In this document: positions 4,371 to 19,811 of the stretch, one piece after another
Position numbering within the stretch: position 1 is the stretch's first letter
Layout of the letters: every line of letters begins with the position of its first letter
Source of the DNA: Nitrospina sp.
Lineage (GTDB): Bacteria; Nitrospinota; Nitrospinia; Nitrospinales; VA-1
Length of the DNA stretch: 39,982 bases
Assembly: GCA_018702695.1 (NCBI GenBank)
Contig: JABIYR010000053.1
Location: 1-39,982, forward strand
Reading direction: 5' to 3'
The notes under the pieces: generated by a model
Database searches by the model: none
Seen by the model: the letters and a program-made list of their open reading frames with translations, nothing else
Told to the model about the DNA's origin: nothing
Made by a program: the position numbers and the translations under genes

Positions 4371-5324
4371 ATGGCAAACCCCGAACATATAAAAATTCTC
4401 AAACAAGGTACTGAGGTCTGGAACAAATGGAGACTTGCAAACCCTACTGTTAGGCCTGATTTCACGGGTGCTAACTTCACGGGGGTTAACTTCGCCGGGT
4501 CTAACTTCACCGGAGTTACCTTCGCTGAAGTAGACCTCTCTGGGGCAAATCTATCTAAGACAGACCTCTCTGGGGCAGACCTCTCTTGGGCTCACCTCAA
4601 CTTCGCAAAATTATTGGGAACCAACCTTAATGAAACAAATTTAGAAAATGCCGTCATTCATGAAACTGTTTTTACTGATGTTAATTTATCCAACACGAAG
4701 GGGTTGAATAAACTGCGGCCGCTCGGCCCCTCAATTGTTGATCACCGCACATTAATTCAATCTGAAAATTTACCCGATAAGTTTTTGCGTGATTGTGGGT
4801 TGCCAGAGCCGTTCATTGAATATCTACCCAGCCTGATTGGCTCTCTCGAACCGATTCAGTTTTATTCTTGTTTCATCAGTCATTCTTCTAAAGATGAGGC
4901 GTTTGCGCATCGGCTTCATGCTGACTTGCAAGCCAAAGGCATTCGTTGTTGGTATGCACCGGAGAATTTGAAAATTGGAGATGAGATTCAGCCGACCATC
5001 GACAAGGCCATTCGGGTGCATGAAAAACTGTTGCTGATTTTTTCTGAGAATTCGATCACCAGTTCATGGGTGAGAAAAGAAGCCCACGAGGCCATGACAA
5101 CAGAAAAGAATAAGGGCAAAAAAGACGTGTTGTTCCCCATTCGTCTCGATGACTCGATCTTGAACACGGCGGAACAATGGTGCGATGACGTGAAGCGCGA
5201 GCGCCATATCGGTGATTTTAGAAATTGGACAGATCACGACACTTACCAGAAAAGTCTGGATCGTTTGTTGCGTGATCTAAAGAATGAGGCCAGCGAAGAG
5301 TTAGGTCGCCCCGACTCTCTTTAA
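4371..5324 (+). CDS. Pentapeptide-repeat protein with C-terminal TIR domain
   Basis: A 317-aa two-part protein. Residues 30-110 hold tandem A(D/N)LSX-type pentapeptide repeats (FTGAN, FAGSN, DLSGA, DLSWA) that should form a right-handed quadrilateral beta-helix. Residues 111-160 are a linker. Residues 163-305 form a TIR domain starting YSCFISHSSKDEAFAHRL. The SSWVRKE motif supplies Trp233 and the likely NADase glutamate Glu237. Bacterial TIR domains with this Glu usually cleave NAD+ or make cyclic ADP-ribose signals, often in phage defence. It stands alone between a palindrome-rich spacer and a convergent MBL gene, with no recognisable defence partner and no clear ribosome binding site. The architecture is seen directly; a defence role is inferred. 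Confidence 0.88.
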   Translation: MANPEHIKILKQGTEVWNKWRLANPTVRPDFTGANFTGVNFAGSNFTGVTFAEVDLSGANLSKTDLSGADLSWAHLNFAKLLGTNLNETNLENAVIHETVFTDVNLSNTKGLNKLRPLGPSIVDHRTLIQSENLPDKFLRDCGLPEPFIEYLPSLIGSLEPIQFYSCFISHSSKDEAFAHRLHADLQAKGIRCWYAPENLKIGDEIQPTIDKAIRVHEKLLLIFSENSITSSWVRKEAHEAMTTEKNKGKKDVLFPIRLDDSILNTAEQWCDDVKRERHIGDFRNWTDHDTYQKSLDRLLRDLKNEASEELGRPDSL

Positions 5325-7760: not shown

Positions 7761-8261
7761 ATGGCCCAAATTCGACTTCCCATTTTGGACAAATTAGAAA
7801 ACGATTTAAAAGAGTCTCAAAGAGAACTTCAGATGGATATTCCCAAAGCCATTTTGACAGCTCGGGAGCATGGTGACCTGAGTGAAAATGCGGAGTTTAA
7901 GGCGGCCAAAGAACGACAGATGTTTCTGGAGTCTCGTATTTCTCTTTTACAAAAACGCGTCAGCGACATTTTGTCTATCAACGTCAATCAGATTCCCAAA
8001 GACCGCTCTGGTTTGGGAAGTACTTTAAAATTAAAAGATTTGGACACTGGCAAAGAGATCGAGTATCAACTGGTGTTTCCAGAAGAAGTCAATCCCGATG
8101 TCGGCAGGCTTTCCACCGCCTCTCCAGTAGGAAGGTCTTTGCTGGGAAAACAAGAAGGCGATGAGGTCACCATTTCACTGCCTGACTCAAAGGTAGAATA
8201 TGAAGTCTTAAAAGTATCCACCATTCACGACACCCCAGAGGGCGACTCGGCACTAGCTTAA
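7761..8261 (+). CDS. greA: Transcription elongation factor GreA
   Basis: A 166-aa Gre factor, near the usual family length of about 158. It rescues backtracked RNA polymerase by stimulating cleavage of the nascent transcript. The N-terminal coiled coil carries the signature AREHGDLSENAEF with the acidic tip residues, and residues 90-160 form the FKBP-like C-terminal domain (PVGRSLLGKQEGDEV). The ATG follows AAGAG at 7750-7754. Its stop TAA overlaps the trmB start by one base (TAATG), so the two are coupled. GreA rather than GreB is favoured by the AREHGDLSENAEY-like signature. Confidence 0.93.
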   Translation: MAQIRLPILDKLENDLKESQRELQMDIPKAILTAREHGDLSENAEFKAAKERQMFLESRISLLQKRVSDILSINVNQIPKDRSGLGSTLKLKDLDTGKEIEYQLVFPEEVNPDVGRLSTASPVGRSLLGKQEGDEVTISLPDSKVEYEVLKVSTIHDTPEGDSALA

Positions 8262-8908
8262 TGACTGCAAAACCACTTATTTCTTTCTCCAAAATCGCCG
8301 CAGAGGACCCTAATTTCCTTGATACCGATGAATGGCCTGACTGGCAAGCCCAGTTCGGGAACACGCAACCGCTGAAACTTGAAATCGGTTTTGGGATGGG
8401 GAATTTCCTCATTGAGATGGCGGCTCTTGAGCCTCATACCAACTTCATTGGCATGGATTTCTATCACAAAGGAATCCGAAAGCTGATGACGCGCATACAA
8501 AAATTGCAATTGGATAATATCCGGGTGGCTTATGGAGACGTTCGTTTCAAAGTTCCCGAATTATTTAAAGATGGCGAGTTGGACACGATTTACATCAATT
8601 TCCCCGACCCTTGGCCTAAAAAAAGACATTATAAAAGAAGGTTGATCAAACCCGATTTTGTTAAACTGGTCGCACAAAAATTGGCTCCGAAAGGTCGCGT
8701 TTTGCTAGCGACTGACTTTGAAGTCTACGCCATGGAAATGCTAGAATTTTTTAATGCCGACCCCATGTTTAAAAATCTGGCTCCCGACTCAGGTTTTTTG
8801 GAAAGTCGTGAGGATCTGCCCAAAACTAAATATCAAAAAAACTTTATCAATGCAGGTCATAAAATCTATTATCTCGAATATTCACGGCTTGGTATTGCCA
8901 CAGCTTAA
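8261..8908 (+). CDS. trmB: tRNA (guanine-N7-)-methyltransferase TrmB
   Basis: A 215-aa Rossmann-fold methyltransferase that forms m7G46 in tRNA from S-adenosylmethionine. Family landmarks are LEIGFGMGNFL (SAM loop, about residues 41-51), FIGMDFYHKGI, the FPDPWPKKRHYKRRL block that carries catalytic and tRNA-contacting residues, and the late LPKTKYQKNF segment. The start overlaps the greA stop. Twenty-six bases after its stop begins the LpxC fusion gene, so greA, trmB and the fusion probably form one transcript. Confidence 0.93.
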   Translation: MTAKPLISFSKIAAEDPNFLDTDEWPDWQAQFGNTQPLKLEIGFGMGNFLIEMAALEPHTNFIGMDFYHKGIRKLMTRIQKLQLDNIRVAYGDVRFKVPELFKDGELDTIYINFPDPWPKKRHYKRRLIKPDFVKLVAQKLAPKGRVLLATDFEVYAMEMLEFFNADPMFKNLAPDSGFLESREDLPKTKYQKNFINAGHKIYYLEYSRLGIATA

Positions 8909-8934
8909 AATCTGTCTACCGACCGGAGGCCCCC

Positions 8935-11124
8935 TTGCCTAAAGAACGAATACTCATCGTTGATGATGAAAAAAATATAGTCAGCTCCCTAACGGGAATC
9001 CTCTCGGATGAGGGTTATGAAGTCTCGATAACAGGGGACGGAATTGAAGCGCTGGAAATCATCCAAACGGACCCCCCCGACTTGGTTTTGCTCGATATCT
9101 GGCTACCGGGAATGGATGGCATTGAAGTTTTAAAGACGGTCAAAGCCTATCACCCTGAGATTGAAGTTCTCATCATGTCTGGGCATGGAACCATTGAAAC
9201 GGCTGTCAAAGCAACAAAATTGGGAGCGCAAGATTTCATCGAAAAACCTTTCTCATTAGAGCGTATCATCCAGTCGATTGAAGAGGTGTTGAGAAACAAA
9301 CACGCTTCATCCCGAAGTGAGGATAGGCCGATCTCTCTTTCCAAAGAGCTTCCGCTTTGTTTTGAGTCTATGGTGGAAGTCAAAAAATCTGTCAAAGCAT
9401 TTTCGAAAAACATGAAACCGGTTTTATTAACCGGTGAGAGTGGAACTGGAAAAGAATTCATCGCCCAAGCCATCCATCGTCAGAGCAGGAAAAATGACCG
9501 CGCTTTCGTTAAAATAAACTGCTCTTTTCGGCAGGCACGCTCCATTCATTCCTTACTTTTTAAACGCTCAGAGAAAGCCAACTCTTCTCGTCAGATGCGC
9601 GAAGAAAAGGTAATTTATCTCAGCAACATCGAATCGTTGAGCAAAGGCCTGCAAGAAAAACTTACAGAAGCCCTGCGACCCAATGGTTCGCAGTCTACTG
9701 ACACACCTTTAGAGTTGATACCCATTCGGGTTTTTGCATCCTCCACCAAAGACTTGAAGTCTCTGGCGGCAAAAGGGCAGTTCCACCCCGCATTGTTGGA
9801 GGCATTCAATGATTCCACCTTGTTCATTCCTCCTTTGCGCGATTATACCGGAAGCATCCCTGAATTGGCGAACGACTATCTTGAGGAAATTAGAAAAACA
9901 CAGAATACCAGCGTTTCAGAAATAGGCAAAGATGCCTTGGCCGCTCTATGCCGTTATACCTGGCCGGGAAACGTGAAAGAGTTAAGATCGGTATTGAGCA
10001 AATCGATTCTTACGGGTGTCAACCAGCAAACAATATCGGCGCAAGACCTTCCGGCTGAAATCTGGCAACCGCAAGTAGAAGTTAAAGATATTGAAGGGAC
10101 AGAGTCTATTGTCGAAGCCGAGCTGGTTTGGGAAAAACATTTCATACTGCACCATCTCAAACAAAATAACTGGGATGTCGAAGCAACCTGCAAAGCTCTG
10201 AAAACAGAAAAAAAACAACTTAAAGAAAAAATAGCGCGTCACGCTATTGAGCTACCCAGCACATCCAATACTAAGAATGGAACTCGTCACCCGCAACGCA
10301 CCCTGAAACGCAGTGTTGTGTTGTGTGGCAGTGGTTTGCATTCAGGCATTAAAACAGGGTTGATTTTGCAACCCTTGCCTCCTGGAAGCGGAATCATATT
10401 TGGAGATATTTCAACAGGCAAAACCATTCCCGCTCATTTGGAAAATGTGCAATCTACAGATTATGCCACCCGCTTGCAAAAAGACCGCGCTTCTGTCGGC
10501 ACCATCGAGCATATTATGGCGGTTCTTCATATGTACAAGATCACCAACTTACTGATTAAAATTGGTGATGAAGCACCGGTGATGGACGGCTCTGCAAAGG
10601 ATTTTTGTGACCTGATAGAAGATGGAGAGTTTGAAGAACAGGAAGATTTTTATGAAGAAATCGTGATTGATAAAAAATACACCTTTGGCGATGAAGACCA
10701 AGGCGGACCCTTTATCTCCATCGAACCCAGCGATCGTTTCTCTGTCAGCTATCACATGGATTACCCCGAACCGATTGGCATTCAAGACTACACCTATGAG
10801 TTCACAGGAGACGAAAGTTTTAAAAAAGAAATCGCCCCGGCAAGAACATTTGGGTTTATGGAAGAAATGGCGCAACTGACAAAAATGGGCTATGCCTCAG
10901 GTGGCAAGCTGGATAATTTTATTTTGCTTGGCGATAAAAAAGTCTTAAACACCGAACTTCGTTTTAAAGACGAGTTTCCTCGTCACAAAATTCTAGATAT
11001 TCTGGGAGATTTTTATTTATTGGGGAAACCCATACGCGGTCACATCAAGGCTTGCAAGTCTGGGCATACCCAGAACATTGGCCTTCTTAAGCATATCCAA
11101 AATAGTCTAATTCAAAAAAACTAA
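8935..11124 (+). CDS. lpxC: Response regulator receiver/degenerate NtrC-type AAA+/LpxC fusion
   Basis: A 729-aa fusion, well over twice the usual LpxC length. Residues 1-122 are a receiver with Asp10/Asp11, phospho-acceptor Asp54, Ser82 and Lys104. Residues 140-380 resemble a sigma54-activator AAA+ domain: Walker A GESGTGK (167-173) and the PGNVKEL end (344-350) are kept. The Walker B Asp-Glu pair is replaced (VIYLSNIE) and the GAFTGA sigma54 contact loop is absent. Residues 395-440 resemble a Fis-type helix-turn-helix. Residues 455-729 are UDP-3-O-acyl-GlcNAc deacetylase, the committed step of lipid A synthesis, with Glu525-His526, the ARTFGF motif, His684 and Asp688 (zinc) and His711 all present. 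The start is TTG at 8935, 5 bases after GGAGG. The fusion is read directly from one open frame; a regulatory role is inferred. Confidence 0.9.
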   Translation: MPKERILIVDDEKNIVSSLTGILSDEGYEVSITGDGIEALEIIQTDPPDLVLLDIWLPGMDGIEVLKTVKAYHPEIEVLIMSGHGTIETAVKATKLGAQDFIEKPFSLERIIQSIEEVLRNKHASSRSEDRPISLSKELPLCFESMVEVKKSVKAFSKNMKPVLLTGESGTGKEFIAQAIHRQSRKNDRAFVKINCSFRQARSIHSLLFKRSEKANSSRQMREEKVIYLSNIESLSKGLQEKLTEALRPNGSQSTDTPLELIPIRVFASSTKDLKSLAAKGQFHPALLEAFNDSTLFIPPLRDYTGSIPELANDYLEEIRKTQNTSVSEIGKDALAALCRYTWPGNVKELRSVLSKSILTGVNQQTISAQDLPAEIWQPQVEVKDIEGTESIVEAELVWEKHFILHHLKQNNWDVEATCKALKTEKKQLKEKIARHAIELPSTSNTKNGTRHPQRTLKRSVVLCGSGLHSGIKTGLILQPLPPGSGIIFGDISTGKTIPAHLENVQSTDYATRLQKDRASVGTIEHIMAVLHMYKITNLLIKIGDEAPVMDGSAKDFCDLIEDGEFEEQEDFYEEIVIDKKYTFGDEDQGGPFISIEPSDRFSVSYHMDYPEPIGIQDYTYEFTGDESFKKEIAPARTFGFMEEMAQLTKMGYASGGKLDNFILLGDKKVLNTELRFKDEFPRHKILDILGDFYLLGKPIRGHIKACKSGHTQNIGLLKHIQNSLIQKN

Positions 11125-11131
11125 GCCCATC

Positions 11132-12481
11132 TCATTTTCTGGCTCTTGCCAACTGAAGCTGTTGCACCACTTTAGTTTTACCCAGTTGGCGAGCGATCTT
11201 GAGTGCTGTCCAGCCGCTTTTTGTGACCGGTTCGATGCGGGCCCCCTGATCCAAAAATAACTGAACCATCTTTGTATGCCCCCCTGCGGCCGCCACCATT
11301 AAAGCGGTCCACCCTCTTTTACTGCGGGCCTGAATGTCAGCACCATATCGAAGCAAAACTTCTGCCGTAGACAAATAGCCTCTTTCAGCCGCCACCATCA
11401 AGGCCGTTGAGCCATTGGCAATGCGACCATTATTACTGGCTCCCTGCTTGAGAAAATATTCTACAATGGACTCATGCCCTCCTGCAGAAGCACTGATTAA
11501 CGGGCTCGTTCCATTTTTACTTTTTGCATTGATATCCGCCTGATGCTCCGTCAAAGTCTGGACCATCTTCATTTCGCCACGTTCGGCGGCAATCATCAGA
11601 GCCGTTGCGCCCCCTTTGCTGACGGCGTTCACATCGGCCTCATTTTCAATCAAAACATTGGCCGACGCAGAGCGACCATATTTGGCGGCGCGCATCAGAG
11701 CTGTCCAGCCCCTTGGGCTTCGAGATTCTATCTCGACCCCCGCATCCAACAAGGCCTGTATCGCATCAACAAAACCTCTTTCAACCGCAAGAAATATTAA
11801 CGAATCATTGAATGCATTTTCAGTTTCAGGATTTGCCCCTGCCGCAACAAGATTTCGAATGATATCCGCACGACCTGTTAGGGTGGCCAACAATATTGCC
11901 GTAATGCCTTCATAATTGCGTGCATTAGGGTCCGCCCCCTTATCCAATAAATAGCTCACTATGCCAGAATGCTCTTCTCCGGCTGAGATAATTAGAGGGG
12001 TCGCACCATCATTGATACGAATATCGACCTGAGCTCCCTGTTCAACCAGATCACGAAGCGCCGGCAATTGACCATACCGGGCAACTCGGGCAAGGGGGCT
12101 CCAGCCATGCATGTTCTTTAAGTTGATATCTGCGCCCCGATCGATCAACATCTTCATACACTTCCTGTCCGCAAGTGTGGCGCATAATAATAAGGCCGAG
12201 TCATCATAGCGGTTCTGAGCGTTGACCTTTGCGCCCTGCTCCAACAGAAATTTTACAAGAGAGGTGCGTCTTTGAGCCGCCGCAACAATTAAAGCGGTGC
12301 TGCCCTTTTTAGTGGTTGCTTCAATATCAGCACCCATTTCAAGCATCGACTCCACTTGCTTGCGGTCACCGGCAAATACTGATTTGAGAAGTTCATCGTT
12401 CAACTCCGCAAATGCCGATCCGGTAGCCAAAAATACCCCAAAAATGGAATAAATAATTTTGAGAAAAGGAGAACGGGTCAT
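11132..12481 (-). CDS. Exported ankyrin-repeat protein
   Basis: A 449-aa protein from the ATG at 12481; an upstream in-frame TTG at 12520 would add 13 residues before the signal peptide and is less likely. Residues 1-25 look like a cleavable signal ending SAFA. The rest is about twelve or thirteen 33-residue ankyrin repeats (typical units GATPLIISAGEEH and GWTALMRAAKYG, with GADI/GADPN turns). Ankyrin repeats are protein-binding scaffolds, so a periplasmic binding role is plausible; the partner is unknown. Its stop lies 7 bases from the convergent stop of the LpxC fusion gene, with no terminator between them. Confidence 0.85.
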   Translation of the reverse strand: MTRSPFLKIIYSIFGVFLATGSAFAELNDELLKSVFAGDRKQVESMLEMGADIEATTKKGSTALIVAAAQRRTSLVKFLLEQGAKVNAQNRYDDSALLLCATLADRKCMKMLIDRGADINLKNMHGWSPLARVARYGQLPALRDLVEQGAQVDIRINDGATPLIISAGEEHSGIVSYLLDKGADPNARNYEGITAILLATLTGRADIIRNLVAAGANPETENAFNDSLIFLAVERGFVDAIQALLDAGVEIESRSPRGWTALMRAAKYGRSASANVLIENEADVNAVSKGGATALMIAAERGEMKMVQTLTEHQADINAKSKNGTSPLISASAGGHESIVEYFLKQGASNNGRIANGSTALMVAAERGYLSTAEVLLRYGADIQARSKRGWTALMVAAAGGHTKMVQLFLDQGARIEPVTKSGWTALKIARQLGKTKVVQQLQLARARK

Positions 12482-12789
12482 GAGACATAAGTTTCGTGAG
12501 TCAACTCGCCATGATATCAAAAGGCAAATAGACTCTCATTTTTGACAATATATTTCGCTTGCAAGAGAAAAATATAACCAACTTATTGAAAGAATGGAAG
12601 TGTTTCCTGACAATCACTCGAAATTTAAGGAGAAAAGAGGGAGAAAAAGAAATCCGCCCACCAAGGAGGTAGAAAGGAGGTGGGCGGATCGCAAAAAGGG
12701 GTGGAATACTAATTCCGTATATAAGAGCACTGTATAAACGAAATTATTCCCGAAAAATAAAATTTCTATTCATTTATCTCATTCTCGCC
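12482..12789. other. Spacer with a terminator and no gene
   Basis: The spacer lies between two minus-strand genes. It holds the hairpin at 12640-12689 and is A/T rich elsewhere. No open frame with a ribosome binding site was seen. The promoter of the ankyrin gene should lie here, but no convincing consensus was found. Confidence 0.5.
12640..12689 (-). terminator. Rho-independent terminator of the GGDEF gene
   Basis: An exact 11-bp stem (12652-12662 with 12679-12689, ATCCGCCCACC and its complement) encloses a 16-base loop. On the minus strand it is followed by a T-rich stretch (TTTCTTTTTC). It begins about 100 bases after the stop of the PAS-GGDEF gene. The minus-strand sequence reads ACCTCCTT twice across the loop, which equals the anti-Shine-Dalgarno end of 16S rRNA. 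Confidence 0.7.
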
Positions 12790-18077: not shown

Positions 18078-19811
18078 ATGACCCTGCTTAACACTATTCT
18101 TCCCGAGCAACGCAGAGGGAAACTCAAAGCCCTGCTTGACGCGGGTAAAACCGTTCGAGTGCTGGAAGCCCATAATGGGTTGAGTGGCATCATTGCCAAC
18201 ACGCTTGAAGTCACCGGAGAATCAGAGGGCAAAAGTGTCGCTCGGCAGTTTGATGCCATCTGGGAGAGTAGCCTCACCGACTCAGCGTCAAAAGGCCACC
18301 CTGACATAGAGGTAGTCACCTTTGACTCTCGGTTTCATACGATTAATGAAATTCTCGCTGTGACAGATAAACCCATGATCGTAGATGGTGACACAGGCGG
18401 AGATGCAAACACCTTCGAATACACCGTCTCCAAGCTTGAACGCGCTGGTGTCTCAGCCGTGATCATTGAAGACAAAGTTTTCCCTAAACGCAACAGTCTA
18501 GAGGCTGGAGTCCAGCAAAACCTGCAAGAGCCAGAAGTCTTTGCGCAAAAAATACGCCGAGGGAAAAGCATCCAAAAAAGCAATGACTTCATGATAATCG
18601 CCCGCATCGAAAGCCTGATCGCAGGAAAACCCATGGAGGACGCTTTAAACCGAGCTACGCAATATCTTCAAGCGGGTGTCGATGGCATCATGATCCACTC
18701 CAAATCCAAAAACCCGGATGAGATTCTTGAGTTTTCCCAGAAATATCAAATAATTTTAAAAGATCTCAAGCTGGATAAGCCATTAGTGTGTGTGCCCACC
18801 ACCTACAACACGATCACCGAAGACGAGCTCAGTGCCGCAGGTTTCAATATCATTATTTATGCCAATCACCTTTTGCGCAGTGCTTATCATGCCATGATGG
18901 AAACGGCAAAAACCCTTCTGCGTAATCAACGGTCGCTGGAGGCGGACCCTCTGTGTGTACCCGTGCGGGAGATTTTTAAAACCGTCGGTTTCCTAGAGGT
19001 CAAAGAAAAAGATCAGCAAGATGAGCAGACCACCAATATTCCTGTGATCATCCCTGCCGCAGGAGAAGACCCGGTTTTCAAAGAAATGCTGAATGGCAAA
19101 CCCAAAACCATGTTGGAAATTGGCGGCAAAACCCTCATTGATCACCAGATTCAAACCCTCAGTAACGCCAATTTGGCGGACATCACACTCATTGCAGGCT
19201 ATGGCAAAGACAAACTGCATGTTGAGGGCATCGAGGTTCTAGAAAATCCTGACTACCAGAAAGGTTCCATGCTCAACTCCTTACTGGTAGCAAAAGAAAA
19301 AATGGCCAATGGTTTCATCATGCTGTACTCAGATATTCTCATGGAAGACGCTATCCTCAATAAACTCATGGATTGCAAGGAGGATATCGTTCTCGTTGCC
19401 GACAACTCCACGCAATATCATCAGCCGGAGGAAGGCCACGCCCTCGATTATATTATCAGCAAAAACCACTATAAACCCGCGCGCAGAGCCATCCGCTTCA
19501 CGGGCGAAAACACAGTGGCCAATATTGGCATCAAGATCAATCCTGAAACCGCGACGCATGAGTTCATAGGCTTGGCTCGCTTTAGTAAAACCGGCGCCGA
19601 ACAATTTTTAGAAACTTATAGCGATGTGATCAGCAATTTTACCGGACCATTTCAAGAGTCCGAGGATATCGCCAACCTGACCTTCACCGACCTCATGCAA
19701 GAAATGATTGACAGAGGATTTGCCGTTCACTATATGGAGATTCACAAAGGCTGGCTGGAAATTCACAACACCGACCATATTGCCCTTGCTCAAAAATCTT
19801 TTAACGCATAA
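18078..19811 (+). CDS. Phosphoenolpyruvate mutase fused to a nucleotidyltransferase
   Basis: A 577-aa fusion. Residues 10-290 are a PEP phosphomutase of the isocitrate-lyase superfamily, which makes the C-P bond of phosphonopyruvate. The diagnostic loop EDKVFPKRNS (131-140) and DGDTGGD (103-109) are present. Residues 320-575 are a nucleotidyltransferase similar to phosphonate (PntC) or phosphocholine cytidylyltransferases: KPKTMLEIGGKTLIDHQ, LYSDILMED and a late GLARFSKTG. The usual GxGxR nucleotide loop is altered (IPAAGEDPVFKE). The pair suggests an activated phosphonate for surface decoration. Neither phosphonopyruvate decarboxylase nor an aminotransferase is nearby. GGAG lies 9 bases before the ATG. 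Confidence 0.88.
   Translation: MTLLNTILPEQRRGKLKALLDAGKTVRVLEAHNGLSGIIANTLEVTGESEGKSVARQFDAIWESSLTDSASKGHPDIEVVTFDSRFHTINEILAVTDKPMIVDGDTGGDANTFEYTVSKLERAGVSAVIIEDKVFPKRNSLEAGVQQNLQEPEVFAQKIRRGKSIQKSNDFMIIARIESLIAGKPMEDALNRATQYLQAGVDGIMIHSKSKNPDEILEFSQKYQIILKDLKLDKPLVCVPTTYNTITEDELSAAGFNIIIYANHLLRSAYHAMMETAKTLLRNQRSLEADPLCVPVREIFKTVGFLEVKEKDQQDEQTTNIPVIIPAAGEDPVFKEMLNGKPKTMLEIGGKTLIDHQIQTLSNANLADITLIAGYGKDKLHVEGIEVLENPDYQKGSMLNSLLVAKEKMANGFIMLYSDILMEDAILNKLMDCKEDIVLVADNSTQYHQPEEGHALDYIISKNHYKPARRAIRFTGENTVANIGIKINPETATHEFIGLARFSKTGAEQFLETYSDVISNFTGPFQESEDIANLTFTDLMQEMIDRGFAVHYMEIHKGWLEIHNTDHIALAQKSFNA

Follow-up and report, generated by a model that had tools for sequence, protein, structure and literature searches.

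An NtrX-LpxC fusion protein of Nitrospinota and part of a second phylum may place lipid A synthesis under the control of NtrY

LpxC is the committed enzyme of lipid A synthesis, its main control point and an antibiotic target. The controls known for it act either on its abundance, through FtsH, LapB and YejM, or on its gene, through NtrYX and ChvGI (PMC12444477). The locus described here raises the question of whether LpxC might also be controlled by a phosphorylation domain built into its own chain. It lies in a stretch of 39,982 nucleotides from Nitrospina sp. (contig JABIYR010000053.1 of assembly GCA_018702695.1), the whole of which we refer to as the window. A single stop-free frame (8935-11124, + strand) encodes 729 residues; its start codon is TTG and is preceded by a GGAGG ribosome-binding site on the same strand (8925-8929, counted by eye and perhaps 1-2 bases off). 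The initial annotation had read this one frame as joining a receiver, an AAA+ region, a Fis-like segment and LpxC, and Pfam agrees, with domain E-values ranging from 1e-16 to 1e-81.

The receiver domain, of NtrX type, spans residues 1-122 (8935-9300, +; PF00072, Response_reg at residues 6-115, E 1.4e-31). Its phosphorylation site, previously noted from Asp54 and Lys104, is indeed intact: D10 and D11, the phospho-acceptor D54, S82 and K104 make up the full set of Asp-Asp pair, acceptor Asp, Ser/Thr and Lys. There follows a degenerate AAA+ core and lid, also NtrX-type (9367-10080, +; residues 145-382), which is matched by Sigma54_activat (residues 145-289) and Sigma54_activ_2 (146-301) at E about 1e-20 and by AAA_lid_14 (306-382). 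Here too the sequence agrees with the first reading: Walker A is present as GESGTGKE at residues 167-174, the Walker B position reads VIYLSNIE and lacks the Asp-Glu pair, and the GAFTGA loop is deleted. Thus, the domain has neither GAFTGA nor the Walker A plus Walker B of an active ATPase, the features by which a sigma54 activator is recognised. A Fis-like three-helix segment (10108-10239, +; residues 392-435), the helices of which appear in the predicted model, leads on to the LpxC domain (UDP-3-O-acyl-GlcNAc deacetylase; 10285-11112, +; residues 451-726), where Pfam LpxC (PF03331) matches residues 454-721 at E 9.5e-82. Alignment to 28 LpxC sequences from the PDB shows, in agreement with the initial annotation, that all eight zinc and catalytic residues are there (E525, H526, T638, H684, K685, D688, D692 and H711), and profile scores exceed the cut-offs of both PF03331 (274.9 bits; cut-off 27) and TIGR00325 (238.8 bits; cut-off 187). 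A check for a second LpxC in the window's genome (2.49 Mb, 94% complete) found none. Complete residues, passing profile scores and its status as the sole LpxC of the genome together predict that the protein is a deacetylase.

Upstream of the fusion gene lie a greA-like gene (7761-8261, +; Pfam GreA_GreB) and a trmB-like gene (8261-8908, +; Pfam Methyltransf_4), the latter separated from it by a 26 bp gap, and the three likely form one operon in this genome. Convergent with the fusion gene, a gene at 11132-12520 (-) encodes 462 residues that are nearly all ankyrin repeats. Elsewhere in the window, a pentapeptide-repeat protein with a C-terminal TIR domain and a weak Thoeris ThsB match (4371-5324, +) is a possible defence or signalling protein, and a PEP mutase domain is fused to a nucleotidyltransferase at 18078-19811 (+), as in phosphonate pathways.

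When LpxC genes were compared among genomes of several phyla, the fusion was located throughout Nitrospinota and in some members of a second phylum. The window's own organism belongs to Nitrospinota: the named loci with 78-83% identity to the window come from Nitrospina/Nitrospinaceae metagenome assemblies. LpxC was found in 65 of 77 Nitrospinota genomes, one apiece. Its frames measure 460-797 aa, except for shorter or partial ones (363, 229, 530, 567 and 500 aa) that were apparently cut by contig ends. The receiver stands in front of LpxC in all but one of the 47 Nitrospinota loci inspected, and that one is itself cut by a contig end. The second phylum, to which the metagenome assembly G078 ('Deltaproteobacteria bacterium' by title) belongs, was represented by 148 genomes. 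The LpxC cut-off was passed in 135, and the fusion is present in 33 of the 135, either as a form of about 750 aa (receiver-AAA+-LpxC) or as one of about 450 aa (receiver-LpxC). One of the 33, G134, has a stand-alone LpxC as well as a fused one (loci L155 and L156), and the contig of the stand-alone copy also carries an NtrY-like kinase. Two short-form loci, L151 and L152, share a conserved radical SAM gene on their upstream side; downstream of each, a small protein is encoded, which has HTH_17 in L151 and is similar in sequence in L152.

In Pseudomonadota (the phylum of Telmatospirillum), the same search found the fusion in 0 of 139 LpxC-bearing genomes. LpxC frames there are of about 300-400 aa, the outliers being a few small fragments and one 510-aa frame, in which some bases are masked and no receiver was matched. 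Complete LpxC frames are of 270-400 aa in the phylum of a Gastranaerophilales genome. Many frames of 435-540 aa occur in the phylum of a Verrucomicrobia genome; these were considered as receiver fusions and rejected, the sampled ones having either a FabZ-like C-terminus or a receiver-free N-terminal stretch. In two of the Verrucomicrobiota loci, L228 and L229, about 230 residues without a receiver match precede LpxC, representing either another fusion or a spurious extension.

The receiver is constrained nearly as tightly as the active site of the enzyme. The eight LpxC catalytic and zinc residues are invariant in 81/81 fused proteins, while D54 is kept in 78 of the 79 proteins in which that column is filled and K104 in 80/80. 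Mean column identity over 44 Nitrospinota long forms is 0.81 for the receiver and 0.82 for LpxC, compared with 0.54 for AAA+ and 0.62 for the Fis-like segment; dN/dS between the window and its congeners is about 0.03-0.05 for receiver and LpxC and 0.06-0.11 for AAA+, rough values with dS near saturation. Within the AAA+ domain, the Walker A Lys is kept in all 54 members bearing the domain, GAFTGA is absent from every long fusion member inspected, and Walker B-like acidic residues (Asp) remain in L113-L116 and L146-L148 but are gone in the window. At L137 (G078; 768-2111, -), the receiver is degenerate, with D54 changed to T and the acidic pair altered, and LpxC is complete. At L143, in the second phylum, an in-frame TAG lies within the receiver at about position 8710, reflecting an assembly error or a broken gene.

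In a maximum-likelihood tree of 81 LpxC domains (a quick search, with long branches flagged and a midpoint root), all fused domains fall in one clade with an SH-aLRT of 98, and there is a single change between the fused and stand-alone states. The parts between receiver and LpxC are far more variable. AAA+ is missing from 27/81 fused proteins, with linkers down to 20 aa and the smallest members being bare receiver-LpxC proteins of about 450 aa, and the Fis-like segment is missing from 20/54 long forms. Short forms are found both at the base of Nitrospinota and within it, which implies that AAA+ has repeatedly been lost, or first gained and then lost. In L110 the Fis-like helices persist in the absence of AAA+, and this favours loss in that case.

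What was the ancestor of these variable parts? The best PDB match of the receiver is 4d6x, which we take to be an NtrX receiver (the record itself says only Fis-family regulator), followed by full-length NtrX (5m7n). The NtrX equivalog model NF051870 scores 257.9 bits, below its curated cut-off of 600, yet scores best of all NCBIfam models. A full-chain structure prediction, also proposed initially, matched full-length Brucella NtrX (5m7p, E 2.7e-33) as well as LpxC structures. The best PDB sequence match of the AAA+ domain taken separately is VpsR (7v2b). The initial annotation had called this domain a broken NtrC-type one. Given that the top structure matches are to NtrX and that NtrY lies upstream of the fusion in deeper lineages, it is better read as an NtrX-type relic, AAA+ and Fis both having been inherited from NtrX.

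The NtrY gene is found directly upstream of the fusion, on the same strand and adjacent or overlapping, in Nitrospinota loci L110-L116 (L110 being cut by a contig end). It is also directly upstream in second-phylum long forms L138, L139, L141, L142 and L143 and short forms L145, L149, L150, L159 and L164; many other members of that phylum, including most short forms, have no NtrY neighbour. In the examples scanned, NtrY comprises NtrY_N, HAMP, PAS, HisKA and HATPase domains. The window's genome encodes a single clear NtrY orthologue (G000:C4:54270-56489; 48% identity, 722 bits, the next match scoring 141) that is unlinked to the fusion and has no receiver gene beside it; likewise, no receiver gene was found within the flanks of the unlinked NtrY genes inspected in Nitrospinaceae and their relatives in the order. 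Orthologues of NtrY are present in 64/77 Nitrospinota genomes and in 30 of the 31 good ones, nearly always in single copy. The only good genome in which NtrY was not detected is G023 (91% complete), where the fusion is present and lacks its AAA+ part. By operon and orthology, NtrY is the best candidate kinase, the pairing in Nitrospinaceae being by orthology only. The frames of L145 (1423 aa) and L149 (1007 aa) were considered as kinase-receiver-LpxC fusions and rejected: Pfam is blank upstream of the receiver, the NtrY gene overlaps this stretch in another frame, and the long frames are spurious 5' extensions.

We consider it fairly probable, reasoning from sequence, that the gene encodes an NtrX-LpxC fusion in which phosphorylation by NtrY acts on LpxC in cis. 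NtrY, a membrane sensor kinase, would sense an envelope or redox cue and phosphorylate D54 of the receiver, the altered face of which would change LpxC in cis, be it in activity, self-association or protease exposure. Lipid A synthesis would thereby be set at the protein level, within one chain. We infer here both the phosphorylation of the fusion by NtrY and the resulting change in LpxC output. The features common to all fusion members are the receiver and LpxC, and because many members lack AAA+ and Fis, these are not needed for the core function. Receiver chemistry is kept nearly like the active site while the AAA+ and DNA-binding parts come and go; this argues for LpxC, and against DNA, as the target of the receiver, and fits the switch on the enzyme suggested in the initial annotation. 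The AAA+ and Fis parts of the window's lineage may add nucleotide-dependent dimerisation; in one GAFTGA-less relative, ATP binding, not hydrolysis, is reported to matter (PMC10274813). The predicted structures show no docking face between receiver and LpxC: the full-length model has a pTM of 0.47 and the linker of the short-form model is disordered. Other observations also count against this reading: L137 has a damaged receiver and L143 a stop codon in its own, G023 carries the fusion with no NtrY detected, kinase and fusion are unlinked in Nitrospinaceae, most short forms of the second phylum have no NtrY neighbour, and the reading gives no role to the invariant Walker A. As to the sign of the effect, loss of NtrYX in Rhodobacter sphaeroides raises the lpxC transcript 8.8-fold and increases LPS (PMC7240162). 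By analogy, a braking role of NtrYX on LpxC would be the natural guess, the precedent being transcriptional and one that may not carry over. We give an even chance to the broader proposal that, in Nitrospinota and part of the second phylum, direct switching of LpxC by NtrY phosphorylation has taken over from transcriptional control by NtrX and from FtsH/LapB proteolysis as the main brake on LPS synthesis.

Other explanations of the fusion have to be weighed against control in cis. One is that it is an assembly or frameshift artefact, or that the fusion is dead and a separate, stand-alone lpxC does the work. Nothing in the window's genome points that way, although G134 does have both kinds of LpxC. 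A sequencing error joining two genes, the danger signalled by the initial annotation, is ruled out because dozens of assemblies, made independently and drawn from several families, show the same junction in an unbroken frame; together with the single LpxC of the window's genome and the strong purifying selection, this refutes the explanation and leaves it a negligible probability. Alternatively, the receiver might serve as a tether that brings LpxC to NtrY at the membrane, or as a degron platform that exposes it to a protease, and would then have little direct influence on catalysis. LpxC abundance is set by proteolysis in E. coli (PMC12444477), the short-form linker is flexible in the predicted model, and the adaptor LapB was not found in the window's genome, where the sole match in a search for LapB-type zinc ribbons is RadA by its sequence and was rejected as LapB. 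However, tethering alone would require none of D10, D11, D54, S/T82 and K104, and these are under nearly the same constraint as the catalytic residues, making this explanation quite improbable.

A further alternative is a bifunctional protein, in which receiver, AAA+ and Fis would still form a DNA-binding NtrX regulator of sigma70 promoters, using ATP binding without hydrolysis, and the tethered LpxC would perhaps report substrate or flux to transcription. The Fis-like helices and Walker A are retained in the window's lineage, the closest structure is a full-length NtrX, and GAFTGA-less NtrC-type proteins are known to regulate sigma70 promoters (PMC10274813). The last point also bears on the earlier argument from loss of GAFTGA against a role in transcription: loop loss alone does not exclude such a role, and it is not peculiar to the fusion, Caulobacter NtrX being likewise without GAFTGA (PMC10274813). 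What does argue against transcriptional control is that entire lineages have lost Fis and AAA+: the former is missing from 20 of the 54 long members and the latter from 27 of the 81 fused proteins, with receiver and LpxC still complete. We therefore regard the bifunctional protein as unlikely.

Response regulators with enzyme outputs, in which the phosphorylated receiver controls the attached enzyme, include CheB, PleD/WspR and the RsbU type. To our knowledge, none has an enzyme of lipid A biosynthesis as its output. As a kind, such regulators are thus already known; the receiver-LpxC architecture was not found described in the open-licence papers searched, and in a 2025 review of lipid A regulation the words 'receiver' and 'fusion'/'fused' do not occur, NtrYX being described there solely as a regulator of lpxC transcription (PMC12444477). 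With NtrX (Brucella abortus 5m7n/o/p, 4d6x) the fusion shares the receiver-AAA-Fis order, the receiver sequence and, in deeper lineages, an upstream NtrY, and with Caulobacter NtrX the absence of GAFTGA. It differs from NtrX in its C-terminal LpxC output, in the loss of Walker B in the window's lineage and in the frequent absence of AAA+ and Fis. VpsR (7v2b) and other degenerate enhancer-binding proteins resemble it in the AAA+ domain but, in the case of VpsR, form a transcription factor without enzyme output.

The LpxC of the fusion has the full fold, zinc ligands and catalytic residues of known LpxC, which is either stand-alone or carries a C-terminal FabZ, whereas here a receiver stands in front. 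The LpxC-FabZ bifunctional enzyme (PRK13188, seen in the Verrucomicrobiota controls) is also an LpxC fusion, but its partner is a C-terminal enzyme of fatty acid synthesis and no receiver was found in it. Desulfovibrio vulgaris DVU2934 is likewise a response regulator dedicated to LpxC, with lpxC as its single target and its own histidine kinase in the operon (PMC3333781); unlike the fusion, it is a separate protein and acts on the lpxC promoter. In alphaproteobacteria, NtrYX controls lpxC transcription by repression (PMC7240162, PMC12444477), and the fusion joins NtrYX physically to LpxC in phyla far from those in which that effect was shown. If our reading is correct, receiver-LpxC would be a one-protein, signal-driven control of lipid A synthesis, through which an envelope sensor could act on LpxC directly, bypassing gene or breakdown, in a whole marine phylum and part of another.
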